In this document: piece after piece, positions 23,563 through 58,969 of the stretch
Layout of the letters: the number at the start of each line of letters is the position of its first letter
How positions within the stretch are numbered: the first letter of the stretch is position 1
From: Isoetes taiwanensis
Lineage: Eukaryota > Streptophyta > Lycopodiopsida > Isoetales > Isoetaceae
Assembly: GCA_021234155.1 (NCBI GenBank)
Contig: JAJEKV010000060.1
Location: 434,001-498,000, forward strand
DNA: 64,000 nucleotides
Reading direction: 5' to 3'
Program-made: the position numbers and the translations under genes
Notes under the pieces: generated by a model
Told to the model about the DNA's origin: nothing
The model's database searches: none
What the model saw: only the letters and a program-made list of their open reading frames with translations

Positions 23563-23928
23563 GGAATGGTCGAATGCAATTATATGAGAAGTGTAGCAAT
23601 TACCCCGAAGATGCAGAATTGATTGAAGGCTAGGATTTTGTATGCACATCTTAGGGTAGTTGGCATTTCATTTTCCCTATGAGAACAGGGATAAATTGCA
23701 TCCAAAACTCATTATACATCTTGGGCTCCACTTTATTCGTCTGGCTTGGAAATCTCTTACGAAATTTTACCTTCCCCACTAGACAACTATTGCTTCTTAA
23801 GAGTTCCACCTTCCTTGCTGGACAACTCATGGCTAAAACTTTGACTTCCTTTAATAAGCAACGACAATAAGCTGGCAACTTTATAATGTCAAAACTTTCA
23901 TGCGACTACATTTTGAATAAGGGAAAGA

Positions 23929-30417: not shown

Positions 30418-31475
30418 ATTCCTAGGATGGGTCCTATGAGACAACTAAGTGAAGTGGTGTTCTCATTGAGCTTTGTAAAACATTGAGTACAAATGGATCC
30501 CTCACTAGGGATAGATAAATTTGGAAATATGAACTTTTAATGCTCCGAAACTAGACAATCATCGAGAGCATGATGAAACTGAAGAACATAAAAGATGGTT
30601 TTATTCGCCACTTGGTGGATGCAAAGGTGAGAAGACTCGGTGACTGCTCCTCATCGGGAAGACGAACCATGCCTTCTTAGGTTTTGGAGGACACCCAAGC
30701 AAATAGTTGAAGCACGACCCCACGCACTATGGCAACCACAAGACCTTAGACAATCCTGCAGAATCAAGGCCGAAAGAGAAAATAACCCGTCAATGAGTTA
30801 GATGCCATAGGCAAGAAACCTCGGAGGCTCGGGGCCGCAGAGAAAGAAACAACAGACCGACCAATGTACCGGTCCGCGGAATGACCATCAGCGGAAAAAA
30901 ACAACCGATTAGTGCTTTCCGGAGGCTACAAATCTGGCGCCCGCAGAGAGAAAACATGAAATAATAAATATCGACTTCGAGAGGCTACAATGCCGCACCA
31001 AGAGAAAATATGAATGAAATGATAAGTCTCGGAGGCTACAGTGCCACGCCGAGAAAAATTGAAAAATAAAACGTATGCAAATTGCCACGCTGAGAGAAAA
31101 TGAACAAGAAAACATGTCTCGAAGGCCACAACCACGACGAGAACGAATGAAAAGATAAGAAAGTCTCGGAGGCTACAAATTGCTGCTGTAGAAAAAATGA
31201 AAAATTAAGAATATATGCACTACCAAAGAAGATAGAAAGAAAGCATGGAAGATATCAGGGGCTATAAGATGACGAAATGAATCACAAGCTCAAATATAAC
31301 AGAGGGAGAGGAGGGGCGGGAAACTGGTGGAGCAAAAAATGAGCAGAATAGAAAGGAGCTCAAGAGAACGCCGATGGCTGGAAATGAGGAAGGAGGCGGT
31401 ATAAATAGGAGAGCAAGGTAGGGCGTCCCCATCCAAGGAATGGCGATTCTATTGCTATTGCAATAGAATCGTGGC
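30418..31475 (+). mobile_element. Helentron-like element, short unit
   Basis: It starts ATTCCTAGGATGGG and ends with the hairpin GATTCTATTG/CAATAGAATC followed by GTGGC. An inverted, imperfect copy of the start (CCATCCAAGGAAT) lies just inside the 3' hairpin. No target duplication is seen: joining 30417 to 37117 restores the LINE sequence GCAAGT|ACTGTACCC. A terminal motif at one end with its inverted partner subterminal at the other, plus a 3' hairpin, is the known layout of Helentrons (Helitron2) and their non-autonomous forms. The interior has 50-60 bp degenerate repeats (CTCGGAGGCTACA, 30,810-31,215). No protein is encoded. Confidence 0.55.
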
Positions 31476-34400: not shown

Positions 34401-37116
34401 CGGAAAAGCGATTTGCACAATCATAGAACAAATGAGCCAAAAGAACCTAGAAAACAATAAAAAAAACTACGATCATGATGTACGTCTAATCTAAGCAATC
34501 GATGAACCCCAAATGACTAGAATGTCAAAGCACATAAAGCCTATGAAGACAAGCGTAAGCCCTAAGGAGATTACAAGGACCACGAGCGTCCGGCGACTAG
34601 CACTAAAAAAGCAAAAACATGGGCATGAGCACGAAATCAGAACCACAAAATAATATTGAAACTCATAGACATGACAAAAGCGAGAAAAAAAGCGAGAACC
34701 ACCAAAAACTAGACAATGTAAGCACAAGGACAACATCGAGGAACAAAACAAGTATGGAGTAAGGGACATACCAACCCTAGCCACAGTTATACAAGCACAT
34801 ATGGTACTCGAATATGATCCAGCAAGTCAAGGGAGCATGGAGATAACCAAAGGCGAAAATGAAAGTATTAAAAATGAAAAAATAAGCGCATGGGACCAAA
34901 AAACCAAGCCATGGTGAAGATACACCTCCAAAGGAAGAAGAGATTGGGCGCAACCAACTCATATAGCTGTGCAACATATAACCAAGAGATACAAAAAAAA
35001 ACCCCAATGAGCAAACGAATAGGTCCAAACATTGCGAGACAAACTCAACGAACAAACAAGGGCAAAGTGAACCTGAACATACCTGCACAATGATCCCTAT
35101 TCTCGGAGCCAGAGGGTGCAACCATGATAAATGTACATGGCAAAAAAATATGTTCAAGTCCCCATGATAGGGAGTACAAAGCCAGAGAGACATCAATCTA
35201 GTGTTTGAGGGGGGCAGGGACCTTGATTATGTGCGACTCACATCGTCACAAAGAAAACCATGCAACTTGAGTTAGAAGGAACCAAAAGCGATAAAGTTCC
35301 ATTCAATCCGTACGATATCAAATGTGAAATACAATACCCCATGATTACAACAAGATGAAATGCCTATGCAATGTCAATTGTACACATGCTACAAACCATA
35401 CAACGCTATTGCGAAGAGGACAACAAAGGCATGTAAGAGGCATATACGCTTAAAATATCGATTCAAGAGAATAAGAAAAGTATAGCCTGTCAACATCAAG
35501 AGAAATGAACAAGGAGGACCACTAAAACAAAGCTTCCAGATGCATTATGAATAGCAAGCCCTATATGCAAACTTACTCTCATGCCACTTGTACAACAGAG
35601 CATGTCACAAGCCATCTTACCGGAATAGATCATGTACATCTTATTACGAAATATGTTAACTGTTTGCTATGTAACCCTTGCACATGTATGTGATCAACGC
35701 CACCATTGATTTCCTCACATAATCCGCCATGATGAGCAACCTTGAGATGTTGGTTAATATGGGGCACTGATAGAAGTGTATATGCAAGAGTATCACATGC
35801 AACAACTTATATGTTCACATAGCGTTAGATGTAACATAGAAAATGAAAAGCTCAAAAAGAAATTAACGAGCAAGCATAACATATAATGAATAACACGAGA
35901 TCCCACAAATGCAAGAGTAAAATACAATGAACAGGGGACATAAGATCGACAAATGCAAGAGTAAAATACAATGAACAAGAACACGATAAACACAAAACAC
36001 CCCTACTTACCAAACTCATAGAGCAAGCACATTACAATTTTAAGAAGGAAAAAGAATGCGCTCGGTAACCTTAGAGAAAAGGGGCAAGGGAAACTGATAC
36101 ATCTGGTATCCCTGCCCAAGAAAGCAACTTCGTCACAGGAAGCGGTGGCAGATCGGCCATGGGTGTCGGATCTGGGCGGTTTGAGATCCCGATGCAGGTG
36201 TGGATGCCGCAATCTCCAAAACCAACACATCAAGCGACTAAGGAAAGGAAAAAATGAGCATAGAGGCACCAGACGAACTCAGACATGGGCTGTTGCAAAC
36301 CTCGGATTAGTTTGAAAGAAGATTCTGAAACGAACAGAAAGGGGCATCGATCCATGGTAAGATGCACGATGAGGAAGATGCATCCCGGCACCAACCCATC
36401 ATGTAAACACGGCCCGAATCAAGCAAAAAGGTAATCAAAGCGGGTTTGGGTAGGATCGAGAGTAAACCGAGGGAAGCGGAAAAAAAAGGTAGGAAACCAA
36501 AACCTCAAGATTTCGAGAAAAATATGAAAACTGGAATGCAAGCTGGAACTTCCCAACCAAACAAACTGAAAATCGAGACATGGGAAAGAGGGAAGCAAAC
36601 AATCCACCAAGGGCGGGCCGAGCCTTGAGATCGATGGCAAAGGAGAGACCCAAACAAAAGAGGCTATCATCGGAAGAACTTGAAGTAAAGGATCCAGCAA
36701 AATCACTTTCGAAACCCACATGCTTAGCCAGCAGATCAAACCAAAACCACTTTCGATCAAACTAGCTTGTAACCCGCAGACAAACACGGTGAAAAAGAAC
36801 AAACCAATCCATCGAATCAAACTCACCTTTGAAAAGCCAAAGAACCAGAGTGAAGACAACAGCACCTCGAAAGCAATCACACAAAGCTATCCCGTTGAGA
36901 AGAAAGAAGCAGAAATAATTTGACGCTTATCTCTTATCTGGTAGGAGAATAGATAGGATGAAAACTGGTGGAGCAAAAAATGAGCAGAATAGAAAGGAGC
37001 TCAAGAGAACGCCGATGGCTGGAAATGAGGAAGGAGGCGGTATAAATAGGAGAGCAAGGTAGGGCGTCCCCATCCAAGGAATGGCGATTCTATTGCTATT
37101 GCAATAGAATCGTGGC
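31476..37116 (+). mobile_element. Helentron-like element, long purine-rich unit
   Basis: Its first 30 bp equal the start of the unit before it, and its last 155 bp (36962-37116) are identical to 31321-31475. The two units sit head to tail with no spacer. Inside, 31.5-35.2 kb has a strong A+G excess on the plus strand and no credible gene. The many long minus-strand frames rich in F, L, S and C only mirror this bias. At about 36.1-36.2 kb a GC-richer patch reads MADLPPLPVTKLLSWAGIP on the minus strand, which may be a captured exon fragment. No Rep/helicase is present, so it would be non-autonomous. Confidence 0.55.
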
Positions 37117-37659
37117 ACTGTACCCATTGCTTCGAGGTGATGTTCCCTGTGGGCTGTGCAGTCTTGCTCAAGACCCTTCTCCAGAATGTCTTGGGGTGCC
37201 GATCCAGGAGATCAAACATCTGTTGCTGATGCTCTGCGAGGTATCTGGCTTTCTTGTTCTTGAGGAAGGAGCGGTATTGACTGATGGCCTGTGGGTGGGA
37301 GGTGGGATCAGTGACTTGCCGGAGTGTGCGTTTGAGCTCCCGACACTCATCATCGAACCATCTGTTGCGGGGGAAGGTGGTAGCACCCGAGGTTCGCCAT
37401 GAGCGGCCTCTTCCAAAGCATCTCTCGGCCACCGTCGAAGCGTGAGGGTCCGGTGGCATTGCTTTGTTGAAGTGTGGGGAGTTGTAGCAGTCCTGCCAGA
37501 TGTCATTCTCAAGCAACCGGGCATAGGTCCCCGCGATTAAGTAGTCCAGCGCACCGGGGCACCCGGGGGTGTTGAGGCAGTAGATATACGAGGAGCTTGC
37601 CAAAGGAGATGCACGAATAGGGGCTGGTGGTCCGAGTCTACTTCCTCGTCCCGAGTATC
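37117..37659 (-). mobile_element. LINE copy B, 5' portion (endonuclease end to linker)
   Basis: The minus-strand frame reads RDEEVDSD-like sequence at the endonuclease end, then RCFGRGRSWRTSGATTFPRN, RWFDDECRELKRTLRQVTD and TFWRRVLSKTAQPTGNITS. This matches LINE copy C at 44.6-45.1 kb. Similarity stops at about 37,659, so the copy is 5'-truncated within the endonuclease. It joins seamlessly to 30,417 once the Helentron-like pair is removed. Confidence 0.8.
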
Positions 37660-42544: not shown

Positions 42545-42998
42545 TGTAACGTTCCTAACCGACATGCCCTTAACCAACTGGGCAAAACCGTCTAGACATT
42601 TATGAGTAGTCGCTTCTACCCATTTATGCCGGTGTCTCGGGAATGCCCCACAGGCACATTCAAGGTTCGAATACTCGAGCGGTCTACCATGGGTCCGTTA
42701 CAGTCTCTCCCACTAGAACTATGCTCGTCCTTGAGCATCCAAGGCTATACCATGTCTATGTCATACCATGTCACAATGATTACCAAGTCTTTGCAAATCA
42801 CCCATGGAGACTCGAACTCGAGACCTGCTCTGATACCAACTGTGGCATTCCTAACCGACATGCCCTTAACCAACTGGGCAAAACCATCTAGACATTTATT
42901 AGTAGTCGCTTCTACCCATTTATGCCGGTGTCTCGGGAACGCCCCACAGGCACATTCAAGGATCGAATACTCGAGCGGTCTACCATGGGTCCGTTACA
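42545..42998 (-). mobile_element. TRIM (terminal-repeat retrotransposon in miniature)
   Basis: Two 158-bp direct repeats, 42545-42702 and 42841-42998, differ at about seven sites. On the minus strand they start TGTAACGG and end ..CA, as LTRs do. Next to the upper repeat the minus strand reads TGGTATCAGAGC (42838-42827), the usual primer-binding site for initiator Met-tRNA. Next to the lower repeat is a purine tract AGTGGGAGAGAC. The internal part is only 138 bp and non-coding. Flanks GCAGC and GTAGC look like a 5-bp target duplication with one change. It sits at the 5' edge of LINE copy C. It must rely on enzymes of another LTR retrotransposon. Confidence 0.88.
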
Positions 42999-43003
42999 GT
43001 AGC

Positions 43004-45319
43004 AGAGATTTCAACAAGAGCTAGGCTCCCGACTCCAGGCAGCAGAGGCCGCAACACGGGGCTAGACAAGCCCACATGTCCCACAACCCACAAGTCGCCA
43101 AACAGGCAGACAGACACCGCCTGCTCCATCTCACACACCACACCGCCCTTGCTGTGAACAGCCCACACACTCCAGACAATAGGCATCACCTGCTGGGACA
43201 GCTATTGTTGCCCCGCAATTCAGTGAGCAGCAAGAGCAGGGCCGCCGACGTCATAATGTGGTGGTGCGTGGACTTCAGAGGAGGCAGGAGAGGATCTCAC
43301 CAAGCGCATCCAGGATCAGATCCTATCTCGCATGGCATTTCAGATTACAGTCCACATTGTTCGAGCAAGCCGCCTTGGGGCTCAACGCACAGATCGCCCG
43401 CGCGTTGTCACCTTCACGGTGGCAGACATGCGAGTGCGTGAGGCAATTTTGCATCAGAGTAGACAATTGAAGGGGACTACCGTGTATGTCAACCAGAAAC
43501 TTACTCCGATGCAATAGGAGTCCTGCCGGCAGCAGCTGGCTCAAGTCAGGAACGTCCGCCGTCGAGGGGGCGCTACAGGCCTGGTCCGAGGCAAGCTTCG
43601 CATTTTTAGGCCGGCACCTGCTGAGGTCACCGATGCAATGCATCAAGCTGCTGCCACTCCTGCTACTGCCACCAGTGCCTCTACTGCACCTCCTGCTCCC
43701 GCTGCTCCAACCGCTCTTGCAACTCCTGCTCAGGCGTTGCACACTGCTCCCCCTGCAACCGGAACAGCTACATCAAATGCCAACAAATAGGAATTGTGCC
43801 TCCGGATGGTATTTTGGAACTGTCGGGGCTTCCCTTGGTAGAAAGGGGAGAATCTCAACTCTATTGCACCAGATATGAATCTCATTTTCCTCATGGAAAC
43901 ATGGGAACATGCAGGGCACAGGCTGCCGAACCTCCCAGGCTATCTGCATTTTTCGGTGTTCAGTGCACACGCAAGCGAGGGCATGGCGGGGTTGCCTGCT
44001 ACTATTGTGCAATCTTGGAGCACTCAGTCTCACTGCACAAAACGGACAGGTACAATCGCTACTTGTGGGTGCGCGTGCAGCATAACAGTGGCAACATCCT
44101 CTTCATAGCAGCATGCTACTTTCCACATGCCGAGAGCAACTTTTATAATACTCATTCGGGTGTGGATAGATTGGAGCCATATGCTGATCTATATGATGAC
44201 ATACAGCAGCACAAACAGTTGGGCAAGATTATGTTGCTTGGTGACTTTAATGCACGCACAGGAGCCGAGCAGGTCCCAAAATTTGAGCCTCTGGCAGAGG
44301 ACGTTTTGCCGTTGAACCCCCAGAGGTGGCTTGGTCAAGGATATCAAACGACAACCATATTTTGCGCTATGGCAGGCAGTTGTTATTGCTGGGTGGTATC
44401 TTTGACCTGGTTATTTGTAATGGGTTGGCACAATGGCCATCTTCCAGCTGTTGCACTTGTAGACAGGAGAACCAAGGGGGCGGCTTTAGTGTAGTGGATT
44501 ATCTACTGGTTGAGGAACATGATCTGCACCTGGTTACCCATTTTTCCATTGGTACAGACACTCGGGACGAGGAAGTGGACTCAGACCACCAACCCCTGTT
44601 CATGCATCTCCATTGGCAAGCTCCCCGTGCATCTACTGCCTCAACACCCCAGGTACCCCAGCTGTGCCTGGACTACGACCGTGCAGGGACCTATCCCAGC
44701 TGCTTGAGCATGACCTGGGGGGATTGCTGCAACTCCCCACACTTCAACAGCAATCTGTTCAGCTGACTCACCTGCTTCTGACAGCTGCTGAGAGATGCTT
44801 TGGGAGAGGCCACTCATGGCGAACCTCGAGCGCTGCCACCTTCCCCCGCAACAGATGGTTCGATGATGAGTGTCGGGTGCTCAAACGTGAACTCCGGCGA
44901 GTCACTGATCCCACCTCCCGCCCACAGGCCATCATCAATACCGCTCCTTCCTCAAGAACAAGAAAGCCAGATACCTCGCAGAGCATCAGCGACAGATGTT
45001 TGGTCTCCTAGATCGGCACCCCAAGACATTCTGGAGAAGGGTCTTGAGCAAGACTGCACAGCCCACAGGGAACATCACCTCGGAGCAATGGGTACAGTAC
45101 TTGCAACAGCTTTATGACCCGCTCGGGGGCCGGACACCAGTCCCTCCACAATAGGCATGGCTCTGGTCATCACAAAGGGGGATGTCATCATGGGCCTACA
45201 ATGCCTAGCTAATGGGAAGGCAGCAGATTTGGACGGCATGCAGGCGGAACTTCTGAAATGGGCTGGGCCTCCCCTGGTTCCTGTCCTCACGGCATTATAC
45301 AATAAAGCATTGCAAGAAG
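43004..45319 (+). mobile_element. LINE copy C, 5' part: ORF1 and endonuclease
   Basis: ORF1 traces at 43,330-43,790 read RPRVVTFTVADMRVREAILH and LKGTTVYVNQKL, like the nucleic-acid-binding ORF1 of L1-type LINEs, then an A/P-rich tail. ORF2 starts near 43,790 with an apurinic-type endonuclease: NLIFLMETWEHAGHRLPN, IMLLGDFNARTG (44,230-44,270), SVVDYLLVEE and SDHQPLFMHLHW. The linker to the reverse transcriptase ends at 45,315 in ALYNKAL. Frames shift several times, so it is inactive. It is cut at 45,319 by the 8.8-kb transposon and continues at 54,157. The 4 bases GAAG (45316-45319) are the left copy of that target duplication. Confidence 0.85.
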
Positions 45320-45349
45320 AACAAGGTTTAAAATGAAACGCACTTATTT
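45320..45349 (+). repeat. Left terminal inverted repeat of the 8.8-kb transposon
   Basis: It begins AACAAGGTTTAAA and ends GCACTTATTT, matching the right end at 27 of 30 positions. It overlaps a perfect 10-bp hairpin, AAACGCACTT/AAGTGCGTTT (to about 45,362). At the right end the corresponding AAACACACTT is instead repeated directly. Confidence 0.88.
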
Positions 45350-46582
45350 AAGAAGTGCGTTTGAAAGATTCCTTTAAAAAAATTGAAAACTTGAAAAAAC
45401 AGACAAAATAGGGAGCAAAATAGATTGTTGAGCACCTAGCGTTCGGAATACCACGGAAAAAGTAACATTTTTAAAGCTATTTCATTTTAAAAAGAAAGCA
45501 GGGAAAAAAATGCTTGTTTTGAGGAGGAAAACACTAGTTTTGGAAACTGAACATGTTCTTATTGATGAAAATAGAAGCAAATACAGTTTGTCTTTTTGCA
45601 CACTTAATGTAAGTACGACCAAAATCAAACTTAAAGAAGACAAAGAGTTTGAAATCATGGAGCAAGAAAGAGTTGTTCTAATTAAACATTGTTGAAGACA
45701 CAAAGCTTTCAGTTTAAAAATTTTCATGAATATGTATTACAATTCTTAGTTAGTACATAGTTTAAAATAAAACAAGAGAGGCACTCAAACAACCATGCAA
45801 TGGTATGTTGACATTTCAATCTGTCTGTATAAATTCATACGGGAGGTGGCTCTTTCCAGTCCACAGGACTCTCGTCCCCCTTTGGATCTATCTCTTATGA
45901 GGCCACAAAGCCAGAGACGCCTGCTTCTGATTCTAATGCTATTGGAACAGGCGGTTTGGCGGGCTCTAGCTCCACAGGCTCCAGGTCCACGAACTCCACC
46001 TCCTCATCTTTTCTTCCCGTAATTGGAGGCTGGATTTCTGTGTAAGTGCCTTTAACATCCCCAGCACCATTTTTTGCTCCCAGTTCCTCATTTTCATCAG
46101 GAAACGATTCACATGAGCTTATCCTGGTCCTCATGAAACTTATTTTGTCTGGGTCTATATCAACTGAAACAACATTACGCCCCTGCTTAAGGGCGCAAAC
46201 TGCTGTGGTGCCTGTTCCCGAGAATGCGTCCAAAATCCAGTCGCCCGGGCGAGAAAACCACTGTATCAAATTGTTAATGAGCCTTTGGGGCTTCTGGTAA
46301 TGGGACATCACAACGCCTTGTCTCTGTGGGTCTCTCAACTTTTGCAAGACAACAGGGAACTGGAAAGCATTGCATGGAGGCGTCTTCTCATTCTACGTAT
46401 TGAAATGTACCATGGTTTTTTTGGTGTCTGCGCTGTAATAACCTATATGGAAATGCTCGAAGCAGCTCATTAAGCGCGGACCACCATGTCTTTTGACGTT
46501 CGTCTTCAGCCTGCCAATCAACACAGTAATTCTAAATTAGCAGAAAGAAAACAATGAAAATAAGTAATCTTAGTAGTGTAGC

Positions 46583-46683
46583 AGTATAAATTTATACCAC
46601 GGTTGCCTTGCTGTATAAATTTATACCACGGTTGCCATGCTATATAAATTTATACCAGCTCCAGCCGTATAAATTTATACAGC
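46583..46683. repeat. Four TATAAATTTATA palindromes in a methylase-gene intron
   Basis: Four sites follow one another at about 28-bp spacing (46584, 46612, 46640, 46668) with CACGGTTGCC-type spacers. They lie wholly inside the intron between 46,511 and 46,755. Confidence 0.9.
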
Positions 46684-47760
46684 AAGGCAACTGTGGAAAG
46701 AATTATACCGTGGAGTTACAGTAAAAAGAAAAGCTTTAACGTATGAAAAGCTTACCAAATACAGTTCTCGAAGCCGGCGTTGCAGACTGTTCCTATAGGT
46801 TTGAGCACGGACATGGTCTGCAGGTCGGAATGAAAAATAATTACCCTTCAATTTGCAGATAGCGTGACTTCCTTTAGGCCGTCCAAAAAAGCACGAACTT
46901 GCAAATGAGTGAAAGTCTCATCATCAAAGGCGCTATCTTTAATTCTGAAGCCATAAGGAATATCGGCTCTGCACAATGTGAAGTTTTGCTTGTCCACAAC
47001 TGTCCCCAGCCTGGTGCAATCACCCTGTACAACTCTATACAAGCAGTCCTGGCCAAACGTTGTGAATCTTTCGTAGCTAGTGTCAAAACTGCTAGAGCCG
47101 ACTTCTTTTCCCTGTTCAATGGCCTTTAGTCTCTGCCTTTCCTCTTTGGCCCTACGAACCAGGTTCAAAAATCCTGCTGGCAGCCCTTTCTTCTTGTTCT
47201 GTAAGAGAAAAGTGAGACAAAAGACTGGAAGACAAAACATGTTTTCTGCAAAACTCACCCGACCGGGTTAACCGCTTGCTCTCGATTGTCTTTATCATGC
47301 ATTACAAGTTGGGTAAAGAAGCTTGCACTCCTCCCAGTTTTCTAGGTTCAGTTGCTTCATCAACTCAGACTGGCAGGTGACAATGTCCTTCTGACTGAAA
47401 GAAGAAAAAGATTGTAATTCTAAGTGAAGAAAAAAGTACACGACAAAGCAAATGAGGCTTATGTCTTAGCCTCCTTAGCCATTTCATCTAGAGTGAATCC
47501 TTTGGCCACAACTTTTTCTAAAATGCGCACAATAATTTCCTTGCTCTTAAGACCCTGTAGTTGCGTCCACGGCACAATGCTCATGTTTTTTTTTGCTTTG
47601 CCTCACTACTTTTTTTCGGTTTTTTTCCAATGGAGCTAGTTTGCTCTTTAAGTTCACCATCCTCGAACATGCAGAAAATTCTTTCTTGAAGATCCCACAC
47701 CTGTTGAAGGTCAAAGTCAAGTACTTTAGTGTTGAAGAGTGTACCAGAGTTTTATGTCAC

Positions 47761-48019
47761 GGTATAAATTTATACCAACCAAGGAAGGGTGCCACTGTAT
47801 AAATTTATCACAGTGCCGGCTTCGGTATAAATTTATCTGAAGCCACGGGCCGGTATAAATTTATCTGGAGCCCGCGACGGTATAAATTTATACCAAGCCC
47901 TGGACCGGTATAAATTTATACCGTGCCTTGGCTCGGTATACCGGTCCAAGGCTCAGTATAAATTTATACCGAGCCAGGGCACGGTATAAATTTATACAGT
48001 GGCACCCTTCCTTGGTTGG
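47761..48019. repeat. Eight palindromes nested in a 245-bp hairpin, intronic
   Basis: Eight copies of (G)GTATAAATTTATACC or close variants lie in the intron between 47,700 and 48,106. The whole block folds back on itself: the 34 bases at 47775-47808 are the exact reverse complement of 47986-48019. Shorter palindromes nest inside. Some sites have flanks that extend the symmetry (CTTCGG..). Confidence 0.9.
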
Positions 48020-49732
48020 TTAGAACTTCTACAGCTCAATGCTTCTACACAGTTTAAACCACGCTAAACATACTATTGAAAGACTCATTTAAAAGTTGCA
48101 CTTACTTGACCATCTCTGAAAGCAAGCTGGAAGTAGTTGTCGTACTGCTTCACAGCCATTATGGGCTTCTTATCCGAATCATAACATAGGCAACACTCTG
48201 TCACACAGGCTTCCCGAAGTTCTTGGAGCTTGTTCTTTTGTTTTTTAAAGTCCTCTCCATGCATTTGTTTGAACTCCACATACTCTCGGTGCATGAATCG
48301 GATTTTGTCAATGAGGCTCATCTTTAATCTGAAATCATTGTCGAGATTATGGCTCATGGCAATGACCTTAGCCTCTTCGTCTGTTAGCCCCACATAAATG
48401 TGCGCTTCAACGCTCTTCCAGACCTCGTTTCGGCTTTCTTCTTTTGATAGTTCTTTCCTTGCTTTATAACTATGTGTGCCACAAAGAACATAATACGTAT
48501 AATCCTCGAAGTCAGCCTTCCTGTAATCTTTTAGTTGGTTGACCTGACTTCTGTCTACCATGACAACGAGTGGCGACACATGTGCATGTGGATTCCTTCT
48601 CATTCTTTGCTTTAAGATAGCCACATGTGCCGCGTATAACTTTCTCACCTGAAGCACTCTGACCCCATCTTCATTCTTTGGTGGCCTCTTAATTGTGCTC
48701 AGTGTCAAAGAAATAGTTTGCTTTAGCAGCTTGGTCTCATTAACCCTTTTCAAAATTGCACTCGACTTGTCTGAGGGCCGCAATACAATATCTGCCCCAG
48801 AGGCCTTTTGAAGCGCTTCTGCTGACTCCTCTATAGTCAAGGCCTTTGTGGTTCTTGACTTTTTTTTTGGGCTGTGTATCTACTACCAAGGCTTGCCTCT
48901 TACCCTTTCCTCTCGTCACCACCTCTTCCTCCTCTTCCTCTTCTTGTTCCTCTTCCGGTTCGCTATCTTTCTCCACCTCATCCTTAGAACGTGGGTACCA
49001 CAGACCTTTGGTCATAACCTTCTCGTCACAGAGTGTCACTGATGAAAGGATGTCCACTATGTCCTGTAGTGCAGGTTAAATTAGGAAGCTGACGGTATAA
49101 ATTTATACGGTAAAGCCACAGAGAACAACTTACATAGCCGAGCTTGTAATTATCCGCAATATAATCATGAACATCTTTAGGCTTGCACATGCTGATACGA
49201 AGCATTCTCCTGTTCAGAATGTAAACAACGTCCCCGTTGTCGTTCACACAGTTCATATGAAGCTCATCTTCATTTTCTGTGGCAGCTAAACTTGTCATCT
49301 CGCCGGCTGGGTAGTAATCATCTGCCTTAAACTTCCCCCTCCCTGTCTGACCACATAAGTACAGGTACGCGTCAGTGGGGTAGCGCTCTCTCGCTCCCCT
49401 GTGGACGTACCATGTCACATCTTTCAGCTCATATGTTTGCATCTTCGACGTTTGTGTCTTCGATGGTTGTCCCTTACTTTTGATAACAAGCTTGGGGCTG
49501 AAAAGGCGCAAAAAACCCCTTTTTTCATCAGAAAAACAGTTTTTTACCACAATTTTAGACACTTTAGCTCTAAGAAAAGTCGCTTAAAGAACCTTAAATT
49601 CTCGCTATTTTACCCCTTTTTCTCTGGAAATAGACCTTAAAACACAACACTAGTGTTCAAATAGTATGGTTCCGGACCTTTCTTTAGACATTCGGCACCT
49701 ATTTTACATTTAAACCACGGAAGTGGTATCCC

Positions 49733-50562
49733 CGTATAAATTTATACCGCAAGTGTTTACGAATTGTTCCTTTGAGCGGTTTGTGGGAGCTTTACGTATA
49801 ATTTTATATCTTTAGGGGGACTTTCTACTGTGGTATAAATTTATACCCCTTGTGCTCAGATGGTATAAATTTATATCGTTGCAGAACACTCGCGGTATAA
49901 ATTTATACCGAGAGAGTTCTGGAACGGTATAAATTTATACGCTCCGAGCATGAGCGGTATAAATTTATACCGAGAGAGTTCTGCAATGGTATAAATTTAT
50001 ATCGCTGCGAGCACGAAGGTATAAATTTATCTTAGAGAGAGTTCTGCAATGGTATAAATTTATCTGCTCGAGCACGCGCGGTATAAATTTATCTGGATTC
50101 GCGAGCCCTCGGTATAAATTTATACCGGTCGGTATAAATTTATACCATAGACCCAAGACAAAACATAAACAAGAAGATTAAAAGAGATGCGGAACTAGAA
50201 TGGTACGGATTAGAGACTTACGTGGCCATGGCCAGTATGGATTAAACATAGGCTGTTAGGAGGAGCAAATTGGGGTCAAGATATAAAAAGCGCCTTGTAT
50301 GCTTAGCGACTCCGGCGTGATATATAGAAAATAGGATGGCCCGCCGCCGGGCTAAAAAGTACCTACGTTACGTGCCTTTCCGCATAGCGTTTCTCCATAA
50401 CGTCTCCTATACGAATATCTGTAAGTTTTTCGTATAAATTTATCTGGTTTACGTTTAACCTTACACCTTCTCGTATAAATTTATACCATCTATAAATTTA
50501 TACCATCTAAATTTATCTGCCGGATTAAACTACGTTCACCTTACGTTGGTATAAATTTATCT
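49733..50562. repeat. Main cluster of GGTATAAATTTATACC palindromes between the divergent genes
   Basis: About twelve sites at 49,733-50,146 and five more at 50,431-50,562 occupy the spacer between the two genes, with one outlier at 49,093 in the first intron. Spacing is 20-45 bp, with recurrent linkers such as GAGAGAGTTCTGCAAT. The position between two divergent starts suggests a shared control or protein-binding region. Confidence 0.9.
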
Positions 50563-50605
50563 GCCGTCAGGCGCTACTAGCGACTATGGTGGAGATAAAA
50601 AGAGC

Positions 50606-53600
50606 TTGAGCCTCTGTCACGCTCGGGCTCCCTCCTCGACCCGGTTTTCACACACTCAGGAGCTTCACGGTGGTAGCCCGCGAAACTTACGTCTCCGTAT
50701 TCAAAGCCCGACCACGAAGTTTGTACCGTCGGCTTCCACCACCGTTCGATTTACTCCACCACAGCCTGCTCCTGAACGTCGTTTGCCCCCACCAATGTGT
50801 TTTACTCCACCACAGCCCACAGAACAACGAAACTTTCCTCCACCCATTCATTTCACTCCAGCAAGGGAGGACGACCTCAGACTCCCTCCTCCAGTTCGTT
50901 TTAGTCCTTCTCCCCTAGTCCAGCGTAGACAGCCTCCCCGGAGGCAAATCACACCAACTCCATCCATCTCGCTACTTGATACTACACTAAGTGGGAGCAG
51001 TCAGCGCCACGCAACTCCTGTATTCTATGACACTTCAGGAGCTGCTCAACTACGTCACCAACCTCGACTACTTTTTCCCAGAGAGAGGGAAAGCAGCTCC
51101 CTCCAAGACCTGCCCACACCAAACCTCTCAGCATCTACTAGTACACCATCTGTTACTCCCGTGTCAGATGAAGAAACTCCTCATGTTGATCTCTCAGACG
51201 AGGACATAGCAAAGCCACAAGACTCTATGTTCGAATTCAAAGCTCTGCCCAGAAAACCGTAAAGCGAAACTTACACAAGAAAGCATGTACATCGCAAAGA
51301 AGAAAGAAACTTATGGACGAGGCTCACTTGAGGGCAACACATACAAAGCACTGTTATTTTCAACGTTGTTTGATTAAGATTGGACTAAAGGAATTGAGGT
51401 TGATTCGTGATAATTACAGTTCAATGACTCTGCTCGACCAAAGGGGCTACTTAGCCTTCAATATTAGGCCAGATTATGGTGAAAAGTTTACTTACACTGG
51501 GTGGCCACAACGATACGTCAAAATGACCTTTAAATTGATTCACGCTTTAGGCGTGAGGCGACTTCACCGCTGAAGAAAAAGGCGACAAGAATCCGGGCAT
51601 TAATGACTTTGCCATTCGGGGAAGTATATCCGAAATTCATGCCCTTCAATGTGTTTCTGGATGGAAGGTTTCTTTAAGGAGTCATGCGAGAAACTCCCTA
51701 ACAGCCCTATGTACCACTTGAGTGACAACTTCACGAAACGTGGAGTCTACAATAATTATAAGGACACGTGTGTTGAGGCTGGAGAATGCCATGTATGCTA
51801 CTCTTACTTCACTGTGCTCTGGAAAAAAGAGTTTTCCCGCGTGTTTATTCCTAGAAAGCACCCGGATGTGCATTTTGTGCTTTCGTGCTCACGAATTAAA
51901 AGCTCAGAGACAAAATGCAAGGACATTTCACACTAAAAGTAAGCTTTCACAACGTGCTCTTGCCTAGTTCTACTCAATGGTAGGTTTTTGTCCTGAACAT
52001 ATTTTCATTTCAGATGCATTGAAAGAGAAACTGAACAAGCACAGAGAACAACAATCTTTGGAAAGGAGAAAATTGACAAAACACAGGAAGAAGGCATTGG
52101 AACAACCACTCAACTACATATCGGTTGTTATTGATGGAATGGACCAGAAGAAGACCACCCTACCACATTTTGTCCATGTGCCTAAGGATGCTCCTGAAGA
52201 AGATTTCATACACCTGCATGTTGTTGGTGCTATGGTATTTAATGGGAAACTATCTTGCAAGGCATTTTTGAACTATCCAAACATTCATGCTGATCCAAAT
52301 CTCACTATCACAATATTGAATAAGCTTCTTTCCAATCCAGAACATATACCACCGGTTCTATATCTTCAGCTGGACAATACGACAAGAGAAAATAAGAATC
52401 AGGCATTGTTTGCTTACGGTGCCATGCTAGTTGAGAAACAAATCTTCAAGAAGGTGAAGATTGGTTTCTTGCTTGTTGGTCATACACACGATCAAATTGA
52501 TCAGATGTTCAGTAGGTTTTCTAAATGTCTTGCTCGAAAAAAAGCTCTCAGCCTGCCAGCAATGATTGAGGTTATCCAAGATTCCTACAATCCTCGTCCA
52601 GACATCGAGTTATTGGAAGAAACTTATGATTTCAAGGAATGGATTTTTCGGAGAGATCAATTGGGTCGCTGTGCAATTGAGCCCTTGAGAAACATTACAT
52701 TTCAGCATTAGATCAAATTCTCACTTGTAGATGGCAAGGCCATCTTACAAGGAAAGAAATATGCCACATCCTTGCAGTGGCAGCCAGCAGCTGGTATTCA
52801 AATATTCATTCGCACCATCCCCGATACTACTTCTATGCTCTCTGCAGAGCAAATGCCTCTAAAAAGCTTGAAAGAAATCACAAAGAGTAAAAAGGAGGGA
52901 AGAGCATTTGACTCAAACAAATCATTGGATTATATTGAAACAAGTATTCAGTCATGCTCTAACCACTTTGGGGAGGCAGATGCTTTATGGTGGCCTCAGT
53001 TTTTTTCTCGGCAACGTGACATGTCAAGCTTCATTACAAGGTCAAAGACCAATTACATTCAACTGGCCATCTAGGCAAACTCTCCCTATGCAAGTTGAGA
53101 ATCAAGAAGAACATGTAGAGATAATGGCTAGCTCAGATGAAGATGACAGAGTCATGTACACTGTCCCTAGACGCACGGCACAACAAGTTGCTCGGGTATC
53201 TGGTTCAGTCTCAGAGATTCAGAAAGGAATGCTCATAGCCGTCCCAGCTGATAATGATGAATCTGGGAAGCCATTCTGGCTAGCTAAAGTCTAGAGGTAA
53301 CAAGAGAGGATGGAATTCCCACTCAATTAAAAGTGCACTGGATGAGAACAAGTGCTGCCAATGCTTTCAGTGGGAGTTATAGTTTGGAGATGGTAAAAAC
53401 AGGAGTGAAAAGGAGAGCAAAGTCCAAAGCAAACACTGCTGTCATAGATCTAACTGAAGTAAAGGTTCTTGCATATGACTTTGTTCTGACTGCTGCTAAT
53501 AAGTTACGTGCAGTCACTCAAACGTTAATAAGGTCAGCATGTGGATTAGACAAACAACCTAGAAAGGTGGCCAAAAAAGATGATGATGAAGACTCACTTG

Positions 53601-53743
53601 TAGACAGTGAGAAGGAAGATCGTTCGAGTACATCCAGTTTTGAGAGTGAAGGTGAGGATGAAGGCTCTACTGATCAGGGACTAAATGAGTTTGAGGATGA
53701 CATGCATCCTGATATTGCTGCAAAATGTAAGTTTGTCCGATGA
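50606..53743 (+). pseudogene. DUF7869-type transposase of the 8.8-kb element
   Basis: The N-terminal 50,606-51,262 frame is proline-rich with repeated RFTPPQP/PPIHFTP units, and no ATG decides its start. Next come KHCYFQRC and DQRGYLAFNIRPDYGEKF (51.3-51.5 kb), then HLSDNFTKRGVYNNYKDTC (51.7 kb). The core from 51,977 holds SVVIDGMDQKKTTLPHF, LYLQLDNTTRENKNQ and FLLVGHTHDQIDQMFSRFS. The likely acidic triad is D53, D133 and D172 or D175 of this open frame. An in-frame TAG at 52,709 precedes 120 more residues in the same frame. The C-terminus (KPFWLAKV, then TREDGIPTQLKVHWM, and an acidic tail) is reached after further frame changes. It is probably the element's own transposase, now inactive unless these breaks are sequence errors. 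The function is inferred from family resemblance and position. Confidence 0.72.
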
Positions 53744-54126
53744 CTCGAACATGTAAAGAACAAAAAGTGCAGGTGATGAGGGTTTGTCAAAATGTCCTAT
53801 ATTTTTGACAATTTTGTTCATAATTTTGTAAAATTTTCACAAGCTTTGAATATATTATTTGTTTATCACTCTACTACCCTTGCTGTTTTTTTTATTGCCC
53901 CTTTTTGGCTACACTTCATATAAGTAGCTATTTTTTGTTCCAAATTAGGAAGATGAAAATAGCTATTAAATATTTTTGCATACAGGCTATGTTCAATCAA
54001 CCCCTCAAAAAAGGTACCTAAATTAGCTAAATTGTCACACTTGTCACGAACAAACCTTCAAAATGGACTTTTTTTAGGGAATTTTAGGGAATATTTCAAA
54101 GATTCCCTTTGAAGTGTGTTTGGAGC

Positions 54127-54156
54127 AAATAAGTGTGTTTCAATTTAAACTTTGTT
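54127..54156 (-). repeat. Right terminal inverted repeat of the 8.8-kb transposon
   Basis: The reverse complement starts AACAAAGTTTAAA and continues to ACACTTATTT. It is followed at 54157-54160 by the target duplication GAAG and then resumed LINE sequence GCTTCCCTCTGCAG. Confidence 0.88.
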
Positions 54157-56091
54157 GAAGGCTTCCCTCTGCAGTGGACCACTAGTAGAGTTGTGCCCAT
54201 ATACAAGGCAGGGGACCCTCAATGCCCAGCTAACTATCGTACTATTATGGTCAGCTCTCTCTTTGCAAAACTGTTGGCTGGCATCCTTGAGCAGCGGCTG
54301 ACGGCAGATATGCGACCTCTCACACAAGTAGGCTTTCGGCCCAGGCATTCCACCATTGATCATATCTTCACTCTGCGCGCATTGATTGAGGATAGCAGGA
54401 ATCACCGACAAAACCTGTACTGTTGTTTCGTGGATTTCGCAAAAGCTTTTGACACAGTGCCCCAGGACAACTTATGGGACAGACTGCGGCAGCTGGGGAA
54501 TCCCCTTGACTTGCAGAATGCAGTGTATAGGCTATACGAGGCATGCTCAGGCCGTATCACATCGTTAGGACAGCCGGTAATCAGTAGTATTGGAGTGCGT
54601 CAGGGTTGCCCCCTCTCCCCCACACTCTTTGGCCTATACATTGACCAGCTGGAAGATTGGCTCTCTAAGCACGGAGGTGCGGGCGCCCATCTCATGCATC
54701 ACACAATTCGGCAACTCATATATGCTGACGATGTCAACCTCCTGGCCTATACTCCAGAGGACGTGCAACGTCACCTGGATGCTCTTGACACTTTTTGCCG
54801 ATTCACTGGCATGCGAGTTAACTTGGCCAAAAATAGGGTGCTGCTAGTTCCATCATCCCGTCAGCCAAGGCTTCCCTCATTCACTTACCAGGTACAAGAT
54901 GTCGAGGTGGCTCCGACCTACAAGTACTTGGGGATCGAGTTCTCTGCTACCACCCACTGAGATGCTGCCATCAGGTTGCGGGTCACGGCGGGTTGGAAAG
55001 CGCTATATGCCATGCAGAACAACAGCCATAAGGTAGAGTTGTATGCCTAGGGCCACCAGTCACACTTCGGGCCTTGGTCGAGCCGGTCCTCTTGTATGGG
55101 GAAGAAGTGTGGAGCCCGGTGATATCCCTCAATACCTGGAATGACCTCGAGCAGGTGCAAAAAGCCTTCTTGACACAAGCCCTTGGGGTAAAGTCCACAG
55201 TTCCATACCAGATCCTACTCCAGAAGACAGGTTTTCTACCCCTTCAACGGGCTGCATTGGAACGCTATATCATTTACTTCTAGAAGTTGGTCGCTATGAG
55301 TGATACACGTTTACCCAACGTTGCTTTGGCCATGGCGATGGGTCTCCAACGCCTCAAAGCCTGATGGAAGGACAAGCAAGCTTAGTGGTTCTCACGCTGG
55401 GATGTACAGGCAAACAAATGCATGCATGTAAGGACAAAGAAAGATCACAAGGCACTTAAGCAGTACCTAGATGCTACTTTCCTTCGCAAGCTCTGGGATG
55501 CAGATGCTCTGACGCACGTTAAGCTGACAAACTATCAGCAGCAAGTCAATCCTAGGCTCACCAGAGGCCCACACCGGTACTTGTACACCCAATTGCCCAT
55601 GAAGAAGCGCAAACTTATAGCTTCCATTCGCACGGGTGCACATCGTCTCCGCATTGAGACAGGACGTTGGGCTCGGGAAGCACGGGAGCAAAGGCTTTGC
55701 CAGTGTTGCCACTAGGGCGCCATTGAGGATGAATGTCATGCCCTCCAGATCTGCCCAGCGTTTGCCCATATCCGAGAGCAGTATGTTCGATTACTAGTGC
55801 CTGGTCAACCGTTGCATGAGTTATTGAATACCTCGTCAATGGGTTTGTTGGGGTCATACCTCCAGGAGGTTATGGATGCACGGACTCAGTTGTGTCCTCT
55901 GGGACGGTATTGAACTGTTCTATACAATTGTACAGCGTGCCAGCATACTTATTACTGCTAAGGTTTTTCCCTCGAAAACCCTTCGGGGCGGGGGGTTTTT
56001 TAATCCTGTTGCTGCTCTCTTTTTGTTTGGGTCCCATAGGCCAATCGGTCTTCGTGGACGCTAAAAAATCTATTCTATTCTATTCTATTCC
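54157..56091 (+). mobile_element. LINE copy C, 3' part: reverse transcriptase to tail
   Basis: This is the best preserved reverse transcriptase in the window, open from 54,157 to 54,957. It has WTTSRVVPIYKAGDPQC, FRPRHSTIDHIFTLRALIED, CFVDFAKAFDTVPQDNLW, GVRQGCPLSPTLFGLYIDQ and the catalytic IYADDVNLLA. Stops follow. The C-terminal segment has KAFLTQALGVK and a cysteine-histidine cluster (LCQCCH.., DECHALQICP). The copy ends with (TATTC)n at about 56,091. It belongs to an endonuclease-bearing, L1-like LINE family also present as copies A and B. Confidence 0.88.
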
Positions 56092-56501: not shown

Positions 56502-58560
56502 TGGCTAACTTGGATATTTGTTTTACAGCTTCCAATAGATCACTAGTTACATCAACTACTGGACCCTCAAAGAAACCCAAGAAGAACCCCAAGATAGTAC
56601 AAGAAGAAACTGTGGAGATACTCGAACTCTTGGCATCAAGCTAATTGACGACGATATAGTCATAACATACGAATTAAGTCAAGACTTGCCAGAGATAGTT
56701 CTCCCTAGGGGGTCTGAATGGTATGTTACTGTGAGCAAGGCAGGCTCAAAGTATGATGTGGTCCTGCATTCGAGGGAGAACAAAGATGCGACATTCAAAA
56801 AAGTAGGGTTGGTCCTTTCATGCGAGGAGCTTGATGACCAGATCTTGTCTTCATAATAGAGAAGACCGTAAAGAAGAATCTCAACATTTCCAAATACAAT
56901 GCAGGTATAGACGGATTTAGGCCAGATAAGACAGCAGACGGTGTTACAAAGTATGGCTGGCCTCTTCAAGGCTCACACCATATAGTTCGTTTTGTATGTG
57001 AAGGTGTATCCGCAGTCCAAAGAAGTTTGTAGAAGAAACCATCTCAAGTTTCTATATATCTGGTTTTGGTGATAGTGGGGGTGCACTTGAGTCAGAAACT
57101 TTGGCCCTAATATCTTTGCCAAAGCCAGTGAAGGAAACGGATAGTGAAAAGAAATCAAGGGTTGATGTTGTAGACAAGCTTCTAAAGTTCAAGCAATGGT
57201 ATCCACTTAGTTTGGACGTAACAAAAAGGATAGCCATTGACAAGCTCATAAGATCTCCTAGAGCATCTTTCATATCTAGGATCTTTGATCCCAAACATGC
57301 CCTGAGGATACAGAAATCCATGGTTGAATTTCCCACCACAGTACCAAATCCAACTGATGTTCTACCATGGGGCTCAGTCAATGACAAGCCATACCCATGG
57401 AAGACATGGGATGACCTAAGAAAAGCGACACGGTGCGTTGGCATTGTCATTGATGGACAACATTCAGTTGAGGCAGCGAAGACACTTATAGAGAAAATGG
57501 ATAAAATAGATGCCAAGGAGTACAGGGAGCACTTCAGTTACAGGCAATGTCAAATCCTTAGTCATTATACACCTCAACTTGCACTGACTACAATAAGTGC
57601 AGACTTGAACACAATTGCAAGGGTGGTACAATACAACTCGTAAGTGACTTTGTTTCTTATTCTGCAATAATCAACTTCATTCTGGCCTTCGAGACAATGA
57701 ACCAATCTTGGTGCTTGCGGTCTACGCGCATAAGCGTGAGTAAGTTTTTGTTATCTTACTTGACATACTTTCATGGCTGGCGCAAAATGCACATCTACAT
57801 GGTACTAACTTATGATTTTATATTCTTATTTCAGACCATATCCCATGCAGTTGAGGCAACCTAGAAATCAATGGATTGAGTTTGGTCGTCCAATTTCAAA
57901 AAGAAATAAGCAGGGGGAGAAGGACAACTCCTACGAGGAAATGATAAAGATGATCAGCAAGGTCATCATACAAAAAAAAGAAGGATGTTGCAGTGGAGGA
58001 AGGGAAAACTGGCACCAAGAAGAAGAAGTCCAAGGAAGGACCCTCTGATTCCTACCACATAGTGTTCAGTCCTGATCATGTGTGGGACAAATGGAATGAG
58101 GTGTTGAACAAGTGGACAGCAGGGGAGCTTGTAGGAAAAGCAGGGAGGCCTGAGAAAGGATCCCTTGAAGATTTTACAGATAGACTTGAAGAGTGCACAG
58201 GGGTTAAGGGAAGAAGAAATTCTCAAGGTGCTCTAGTCTGTTATAGATGGACAGGTCTTTGTGAAAAAGGTCTCAAAATTCAAAGGTGTACCATCTTTTC
58301 CAGAGGCCTGTAAGTTCATGAAAGACCTCCGTGTCATGAGGCTATCTCGAAGGTAATTGTGGGATTATTCGTTGACCATAACATGGAGCAAAGAATATCT
58401 TAATCAAGAATATACATGAGACCTTGGAGATGATAGAAGGATTTCAAGAAGAATATATATGTTTGTTGGACGATGACCCCATCAAGTGTTGCTTGAACGT
58501 AGACAACATCATAAATCCTCCGACATGGCACCCAAATAATGTAAATGGAAGATAATTGGA
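56502..58560 (+). pseudogene. Second ParB/DGQHR-like gene remnant
   Basis: An ATG at 56502 opens MANLDICFTASNRSLVTSTT. A frame change leads into DIVITYELSQDLPEIVLPRG and ENKDATFKKVGLVLSCEELD, then FRPDKTADGVTKYGWPLQG. The open frame from about 57,101 holds DPKHALRIQKSMVEF and, at 57,437-57,486, VGIVIDGQHSVEAAKTL. This matches the DGQHR/ParB pattern with Ser in place of Arg. Next come QILSHYTPQLALTTISADLN and PRNQWIEFGRPISK. After an 8-A run (57,970) the frame slips to SDSYHIVFSPDHVWDKW, and later VIDGQVFVKKVSKFKGVPSF. Coding traces end near 58,560. The order of motifs parallels the ParB-like part of the 48.5-kb gene. No methylase or transposase is attached. Confidence 0.55.
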
Positions 58561-58969
58561 TGTCAGTAGAAACACTATAGATGTTTGACTCTCTGATGAA
58601 AGCCCTTATAGTGCCTGCTTTCCTAAGTAGTAGACCAGATTTGCAAGGAAAAGCGAACTTTACAGACTATGATCTGGTCGTAAAACATTACTGTCAATGA
58701 AAATGTACTCATATGTGTAATATATCTTGTACATGTACATAACTTATATGAACATGCATGTTTTTTGATGCAAAACTAGTTTGGACTTGGCTCTTTCCAG
58801 TCCACACTCTACTTTTTGCCTTGGTTTCGTTGTCACCAATTTCTAGTGTGCAATATTGCCACCAATTCAAATAAAAAAAAACAGGATGCAATTTCTTGCT
58901 CAAAACATAGGGAAAAAACCCGAGGTAAAAAAAATGAATAGTAGAATAATTTCAAAATAACGAAATCAT

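Follow-up and report, generated by a model that had tools for sequence, protein, structure and literature searches.

A Sola-like DNA transposon of Isoetes taiwanensis with a predicted ParB-like methyltransferase gene and arrays of its candidate target palindrome

We analyzed a 64,000-nucleotide stretch of the genome of the lycophyte Isoetes taiwanensis (GCA_021234155.1, contig JAJEKV010000060.1, positions 434,001 to 498,000 of the forward strand), referred to here as the window, with positions counted from its first base. It contains a full-length DNA transposon in which two genes stand head to head. One is a six-exon gene on the minus strand (49442 to about 45835) that combines a ParB-like region with an amino-DNA methyltransferase domain, and the other is a transposase-like gene; arrays of a short palindrome occupy introns of the former and the region between the two (Table 1). 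Related copies are denoted by locus number, the window's own copy being L020, and genome-wide counts refer to the assembly of 1.658 Gb in 1,110 contigs. A long interspersed nuclear element (LINE) is broken at 45319 and picks up again at 54157, with the transposon nested between its halves, and an unbroken copy of the same LINE lies on the minus strand at 29981-30421. Perfect 4-bp duplications (GAAG, ATAG, TTGA, AAAT and ACCC) were found in five of the six elements of which both ends were read (window, L006, L010, L013 and L015), L008 being the sole exception. A copy of the terminal inverted repeat (TIR), with at most five edits, was present at 25 of 30 methyltransferase-bearing loci including the window's own, and stood at the expected distance in 23. 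The first-pass annotation had regarded the gene as transposon cargo resident in a eukaryotic genome and not as contamination, and both statements are borne out: the TIRs, the target duplication, the nesting in the LINE and the many copies support the former, and the introns, the nesting and the copies support the latter.

Table 1. Positions of the transposon, its genes and its palindrome arrays in the window
Feature	Position	Strand	Remarks
DNA transposon, full length 8,837 bp	45320..54156	.	LINE halves flanking; ends aligned with related copies
Target site duplication GAAG, left	45316..45319	.	
Target site duplication GAAG, right	54157..54160	.	
Terminal inverted repeat, left	45320..45349	+	27/30 bases equal to right end
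Terminal inverted repeat, right	54127..54156	-	
Exon 1: 103-aa N-terminal region, no known family	49134..49442	-	Similar stretches of 30-39% identity in L008, L013, L014
Exon 2: acidic/basic linker and ParB-like region	48106..49063	-	Frameshift at T9 run 48860-48868 in window copy
Exon 3: first part of possible helix-turn-helix (by eye)	47463..47700	-	Frameshift at T9 run 47586-47594
Exon 4: remainder of possible helix-turn-helix	47259..47394	-	Further frame change in window copy
Exon 5: methyltransferase motif IV (ADIPYGF)	46756..47198	-	One in-frame stop in window copy
Exon 6: methyltransferase motifs X and I, C-terminal tail	45835..46510	-	In-frame stops in window copy
Transposase-like gene: proline-rich N-terminal open reading frame (ORF), DUF7869 core 51968-52711, C-terminal ORFs	50610..53743	+	PF25273, E 1.4e-50; start and exon bounds provisional
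Intron-5 palindrome array, 4 sites	46584..46680	.	
Intron-2 palindrome array, 8 sites	47762..47997	.	
Lone palindrome, intron 1	49095..49110	.	
Divergent intergenic (promoter) palindrome array, 17 sites	49734..50562	.	High CpG observed/expected ratio

The last exon alone matched the Pfam hidden Markov model (HMM) N6_N4_Mtase (PF01555) with an E value of 2.8e-14 (54.1 bits, gathering cut-off 26.7), and a typed query joining exons 5 and 6 gave 4.8e-15 (56.5 bits). The best-scoring solved structures for the methyltransferase were MboIIA, CcrM and RsrI. Motif IV (ADIPYGF) is encoded in exon 5 and is followed in exon 6 by motif X (QKP) and motif I (DAFSGTGTT); motif IV ahead of X and I is the beta-class order. 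The first-pass annotation had pointed to this order and had proposed the comparison with N6_N4_Mtase, and both came out as it anticipated. We assign the domain to the beta-class N6/N4 amino-DNA methyltransferases and predict the corresponding activity. A D12 methyltransferase match of exon 6 (24.7 bits, cut-off 22) was set aside as weaker than PF01555. In the protein database, the full-length query (region 1-830, 7,993 candidates scored) had no relative at E 1e-3, and the methyltransferase part had one, P0001, at 23% identity and E 3.7e-5.

The introns begin at 49133, 48105, 47462, 47258 and 46755, and the exons that follow begin at 49063, 47700, 47394, 47198 and 46510. All five introns end in AG and four start with GT, the third starting with AT in the window copy, so that the canonical introns claimed at first are confirmed except for this donor. 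The 3' bound of the gene, placed at 45895 in the first-pass annotation, needs to be moved because the family frame runs on to about 45837. The reading frame is continuous across the junction of exons 5 and 6, and intron 5 was recognized, by a GTRAG donor and an exon-6 start with up to four mismatches, in 22 of 30 copies, one of which is that of the window. The ParB-like and methyltransferase exons would be read from one transcript. The window copy itself is broken: its exons contain in-frame stops, the frame shifts at two T9 runs (47586 and 48860) and changes again in exon 4, and one splice donor is altered, so that no intact enzyme can be made from it.

Upstream of the methyltransferase, on the same strand and in the same exon series, lies the ParB-like stretch YYVLCGTHSYKARKEL...VGLTDEEAKVIAMSHN. 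Exon 2 matched PHROG 1033, annotated as a ParB-like partition protein, at E 3.8e-4. In a profile-profile comparison (hhalign), four plant copies aligned with four phage proteins over the G.H...A signature at P 6.4e-5, a value somewhat flattered because the phage proteins had been preselected for weak similarity to this very region. In 200 column shuffles the lowest P was 0.028, so that none came up to this value; P was 0.03-0.87 for four other ORFs of the window. A tblastn search against phages returned 21 records at E up to 10; among the 15 of these that were listed (E 2-8), 11 were annotated as ParB-like and one as a DNA methyltransferase. This last record, a protein of 428 aa from phage phi1_186018, is ParB-like at its N-terminus and matches N6_N4_Mtase at its C-terminus (4.8e-19). 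Homology to proteins annotated as ParB thus appears detectable over the G.H...A signature. A PF24077 match of exon 2 (5.8e-4, under its cut-off) was set aside as weaker than PF01555. The ParB/DGQHR-like label given to the region at first stands for its ParB half, upstream in the same exon series, and not for the other: the motif reads GTHSYKA, and DGQHS (CVGIVIDGQHSVEAAKTLI) stands in another open frame, beyond the element (57002-57643), where it resembles ParB/DGQHR proteins. That frame is part of decayed coding sequence (about 56.5-58.6 kb); it had no Pfam match and aligned weakly and locally with phage ParB (P 0.034).

Sola transposons make 4-bp target duplications, according to the portion of the literature available to us (PMC10741241), and a 4-bp duplication together with TIRs was what we found in five of six elements. 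We propose that the element is a Sola-like cut-and-paste DNA transposon, its putative transposase being identified by the DUF7869 match. The element is not of the DIRS type, as its borders are TIRs with a 4-bp duplication; none of the nine ORFs scanned in it matched a reverse transcriptase or a tyrosine recombinase (Pfam, E up to 1). The ratio of nonsynonymous to synonymous divergence (dN/dS) of the transposase core was 0.15 against L007 and 0.47 against L009, and that of the part preceding the core was 0.45-0.49 against L005, L007 and L009. A structure model of the core was too poor for a structure search, with a predicted local distance difference test score (pLDDT) of 33.5. When the window copy was compared with L007 and L015, the methyltransferase (left) half showed 74% and the transposase (right) half 88% DNA identity. 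Likewise, the proportion of silent differences (pS) between the window copy and L007 was 0.55 in the ParB exon and 0.16 in the transposase core. This unequal divergence suggests that modules have been exchanged between lineages of the element.

The genome contains many relatives of the methyltransferase gene. When the genome was searched with the last exon, 2,790 candidates came up at first look and 150 of them were scored; all 150, one of them the window's own, proved to be matches at 70-100% identity, and many of these were open frames of 180-290 aa without an internal stop. Among 30 copies, the last exon had a median dN/dS of 0.087 at a median pS of 0.46 (362 of 435 pairs, after exclusion of 73 with dS undefined or no greater than 0.02), and six copies carried a stop in it. 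For the ParB exon dN/dS was 0.03-0.17 (six pairs of four copies), and for exon 1 it was 0.11-0.22. The segment with motif IV was located in 24 of the 30 copies, and every one of these had DIPY. The ParB and methyltransferase exons are therefore under purifying selection, and the low dN/dS at high pS, together with the retention of DIPY, indicates that the gene was kept working through much of the diversification of the element.

We then consider the palindrome. The element has 30 TAAATTTA cores, nearly all inside GTATAAATTTAT. Of these, 17 fall in the divergent intergenic region and 13 in introns (intron 5, four; intron 2, eight; intron 1, one), and the six exons contain no core. Two more cores, both without arms, occur elsewhere in the window. 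Counting both strands, GTATAAATTTAT had 46 matches in the window, all of them between 46584 and 50560, where 0.02 would be expected. The exact 16-mer palindrome GGTATAAATTTATACC occurs 7,218 times in the genome and its reversed control not once; its specificity to the family rests on ten sampled places of these 7,218 sites (nine clusters and one single site), all ten of which carry element sequence beyond the motif, short derivatives being among them. Related copies likewise have arrays in non-coding parts. There were 79 ATAAATTTAT cores in the 5,560 bp of recognized introns 5 (22 of 30 copies), 11 in the roughly 21.2 kb between exon 6 and the element end (18 copies) and four in 24,957 bp of flanking DNA, all in L028, whose element end was misplaced. 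Among 86 intervals under 60 bp from seven copies, 56 measured 27-34 bp, with a median of 31. The commonest arm reaches CC/GG beyond the TATA core, ACC being present in 174 of 266 arms. Three non-autonomous derivatives of 2.2 kb (L006:3087-5254, L008:3488-5687 and L013:3356-5558; 89-91% mutual identity) have no frame longer than 121 aa, yet each retains the TIRs and nine sites.

The two arms are not alike in their variants. Arms with TATC for TATAC made up 15 of 133 on the right and 3 of 133 on the left in 11 copies. As a side observation in the window copy and ten other copies, right arms read TATCTG or TATCTT in place of TATACC in 12 of 133 cases, against 2 of 133 on the left; these two readings were absent from 29 other loci. 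We considered the TATC variants as a Nanopore footprint of a modified base and dropped the idea, since they amounted to 5 of 382 arms in the 29 other loci, a sample that represents mainly the intron-5 array and so tests the idea in part.

The observed/expected ratio (o/e) of CpG peaked at the intergenic array, at 1.46 (1.17 with the motif masked). The methyltransferase exons, with bounds approximate and exon 4 excluded, gave 0.60, the transposase gene 0.54 and the DNA beyond the element 0.64; TG+CA ran in the opposite direction. The arrays of L005, L006, L008, L013, L015 and L016 gave 1.13-1.61, or 0.79-1.17 masked. These values fit a promoter region that may escape germ-line cytosine methylation.

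We hypothesized that the ParB-like part, perhaps with the helix-turn-helix of exons 3 and 4, binds the palindrome of about 16 bp, GGTATAAATTTATACC. ParB proteins bind palindromic sites as dimers. The sites recur every 31 bp or so, or three turns of the helix, both within introns of the gene itself and in the promoter that it shares with the transposase gene; by binding there, the protein would gather methyltransferase on the very transposon that encodes it. The mark, or the occupancy itself, could then keep the promoter clear of host silencing and let the transposase find or recognize kin elements, much as VANC acts in Arabidopsis. The palindrome arrays, absent from the first-pass annotation of the gene, give this self-methylation hypothesis new, circumstantial backing; we infer from sequence the role of the palindrome as the ParB target, the methylation, the base that receives it and the anti-silencing outcome. 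For the full chain, a self-targeting enzyme for VANC-like anti-silencing or self-marking, we hold a tentative preference that falls a little short of an even chance. We give a lower, decidedly doubtful rating to a more specific form, in which protein and palindrome would act like a ParB/parS pair for self-recognition, a non-host mark of N4-methylcytosine (4mC) or N6-methyladenine (6mA) would shield the element against silencing by 5-methylcytosine, and non-autonomous kin would free-ride by means of their palindromes.

Several observations weigh against the hypothesis. Motif IV reads DIPY where the usual form is (D/N/S)PP(Y/F/W), the first proline being replaced, and the copy in the window is a broken one. 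The PHROG match to ParB was absent with a longer, slightly different hybrid query, and no ParB model of Pfam matched exon 2 at E up to 1 or a joined ParB query at E up to 10, so that the ParB family check proposed at first found its support in the phage profiles and not in Pfam. AlphaFold gave no usable model of the ParB exon (mean pLDDT 40, four aligned copies), and the helix-turn-helix seen by eye had no support from Pfam HMMs. Only location, a palindromic form such as a dimeric ParB would be expected to bind, and joint retention tie the palindrome to this protein and not to the transposase or a host factor. In the derivatives, column identity was 89% for the motif, 72% for adjacent columns and 85% for the rest, with the motif columns picked by motif likeness, which favours identity. 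Finally, the masked CpG o/e of intron 5 was 0.66 against 0.58 for the exon, and was higher in 14 of 22 copies; since the CpG retention of intron 5 is mostly gone after masking, the CpG signal may be mainly that of the promoter, whose location may explain most of it.

The palindromes could instead be bidirectional, TATA-like promoter or enhancer elements for host factors, with the ParB-methyltransferase acting elsewhere, for example in general modification. TATAAAT can be read on both strands of the core, and the largest array sits between two divergent genes, as this explanation would have it. However, the methyltransferase gene has 13 of the 30 sites in its introns, the commonest arm continues past the TATA core into CC/GG, the spacing of about 31 bp recurs, and the sites are retained in derivatives that have no long reading frames; we consider the explanation unlikely. 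We rate as equally unlikely that the palindromes are sites for the transposase or a partner, needed in transposition, and that the methyltransferase tunes transposition by methylating them. Subterminal repeats serve transposase binding in CACTA elements, and Dam gates the transposition of IS10 by methylation; the non-autonomous derivatives, which keep both TIRs and arrays, agree with such a role. The arrays are nevertheless internal rather than subterminal: in the window copy, the outer 1.27 kb at the left end and 3.6 kb at the right are free of sites.

A methyltransferase captured passively, with no function in the element, would account for the stops, frameshifts and altered donor of the window copy and for the stops in the last exon of six copies in 30. 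It would not account for 150 matches with many open frames, for the strong constraint at high silent divergence or for a motif IV retained wherever its segment was found; thus, we regard a passive passenger as very improbable. The prokaryotic type of the protein domains might suggest bacterial contamination or an assembly chimera, but the spliceosomal introns, the insertion into a LINE of which the window has further copies, and the TIRs near 25 of 30 copies on many contigs leave this explanation with a negligible chance. The main rivals of the self-targeting enzyme are thus the promoter-element reading and the gating of transposition.

Other features of the window were noted by eye. Copies of the LINE family were read from translations at 42600-45319 plus 54157-55960, 29981-30421 and 37001-37657. 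On the minus strand at 58760-58830, SVDWKEPSPN followed by a stop resembles the tail of the methyltransferase gene (ESPVDWKEP) and adjoins Copia-like sequence; it is perhaps the remnant of a second such element. A pectinesterase-like gene with an N-terminal inhibitor domain, in two exons at 21924-23667 on the minus strand, is an ordinary plant gene.

The 21.5-kb Ectocarpus element Sola1-1_Ec32 encodes, opposite the transposase strand, a 1104-aa protein with a ParB-like part and a 4mC/6mA methyltransferase; the same brown-algal report, in the portions available, cites similar genes for green and red algae and proposes that such proteins bind and modify their own transposons, without naming a target (PMC12477816). 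The Isoetes element is likewise a DNA transposon with a ParB-like and N4/N6 methyltransferase gene opposite its transposase, the proteins being likened by description only. It differs in that it belongs to a vascular land plant, measures 8.8 kb and has palindrome arrays, of which the available portions of the algal report make no mention. Petroll et al. 2025 is reportedly one of the two algal papers cited for such genes, and Walker et al. are said to have described N4-cytosine methylation in Marchantia sperm. The novelty for plants that the first-pass annotation had seen is accordingly not tenable as stated, given the brown-algal precedent, the genes cited for green and red algae and the land-plant 4mC already reported, as far as these partial sources go. 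Because ParB-methyltransferase genes of algal transposons have been described, the Isoetes gene is not new in kind; it is a land-plant case of a known kind of gene, and the candidate target array is the new part. No land-plant ParB-methyltransferase transposon was found by title in the open-access literature searched, subscription papers lying outside that search.

The VANDAL elements of Arabidopsis with their VANC proteins offer a second likeness. Motif arrays occur there in the introns and upstream regions of an accessory gene and are enriched in the family, and binding and hypomethylation were demonstrated, according to the accessible text (PMC5735166). The Isoetes element, known from sequence alone, shares the element-specific arrays of a short motif in accessory-gene introns and upstream; however, its motif is palindromic whereas that of VANC, YAGTATTAY, is not, and its predicted protein has both a ParB-like and a methyltransferase domain, neither of which is mentioned for VANC in the accessible text, VANC being compared by description. 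The protein of phage phi1_186018 has the same order as the Isoetes gene, ParB-like first and N6_N4_Mtase second, and the bacterial protein Bce_0392 unites a ParB-like part with an amino-methyltransferase, as far as the text available shows (PMC5512222). These phage and bacterial fusions have no introns, are shorter (428 aa in the phage) and occur outside eukaryotic transposons. DIRS-type retrotransposons with a Dam-like methyltransferase, and retrotransposons bearing a DNMT, are also eukaryotic mobile elements with a DNA methyltransferase, according to the part of the source available (PMC5890265); in contrast to the Isoetes TIR transposon, they are retrotransposons and their methyltransferases belong to other classes.

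Thousands of copies of one candidate target, together with constrained genes and short derivatives, make the proposal raised for algae directly testable. If it is true, the Isoetes element would represent a second, unrelated route to VANC-like anti-silencing and would supply 4mC/6mA writers that are guided by sequence and function in plant nuclei.

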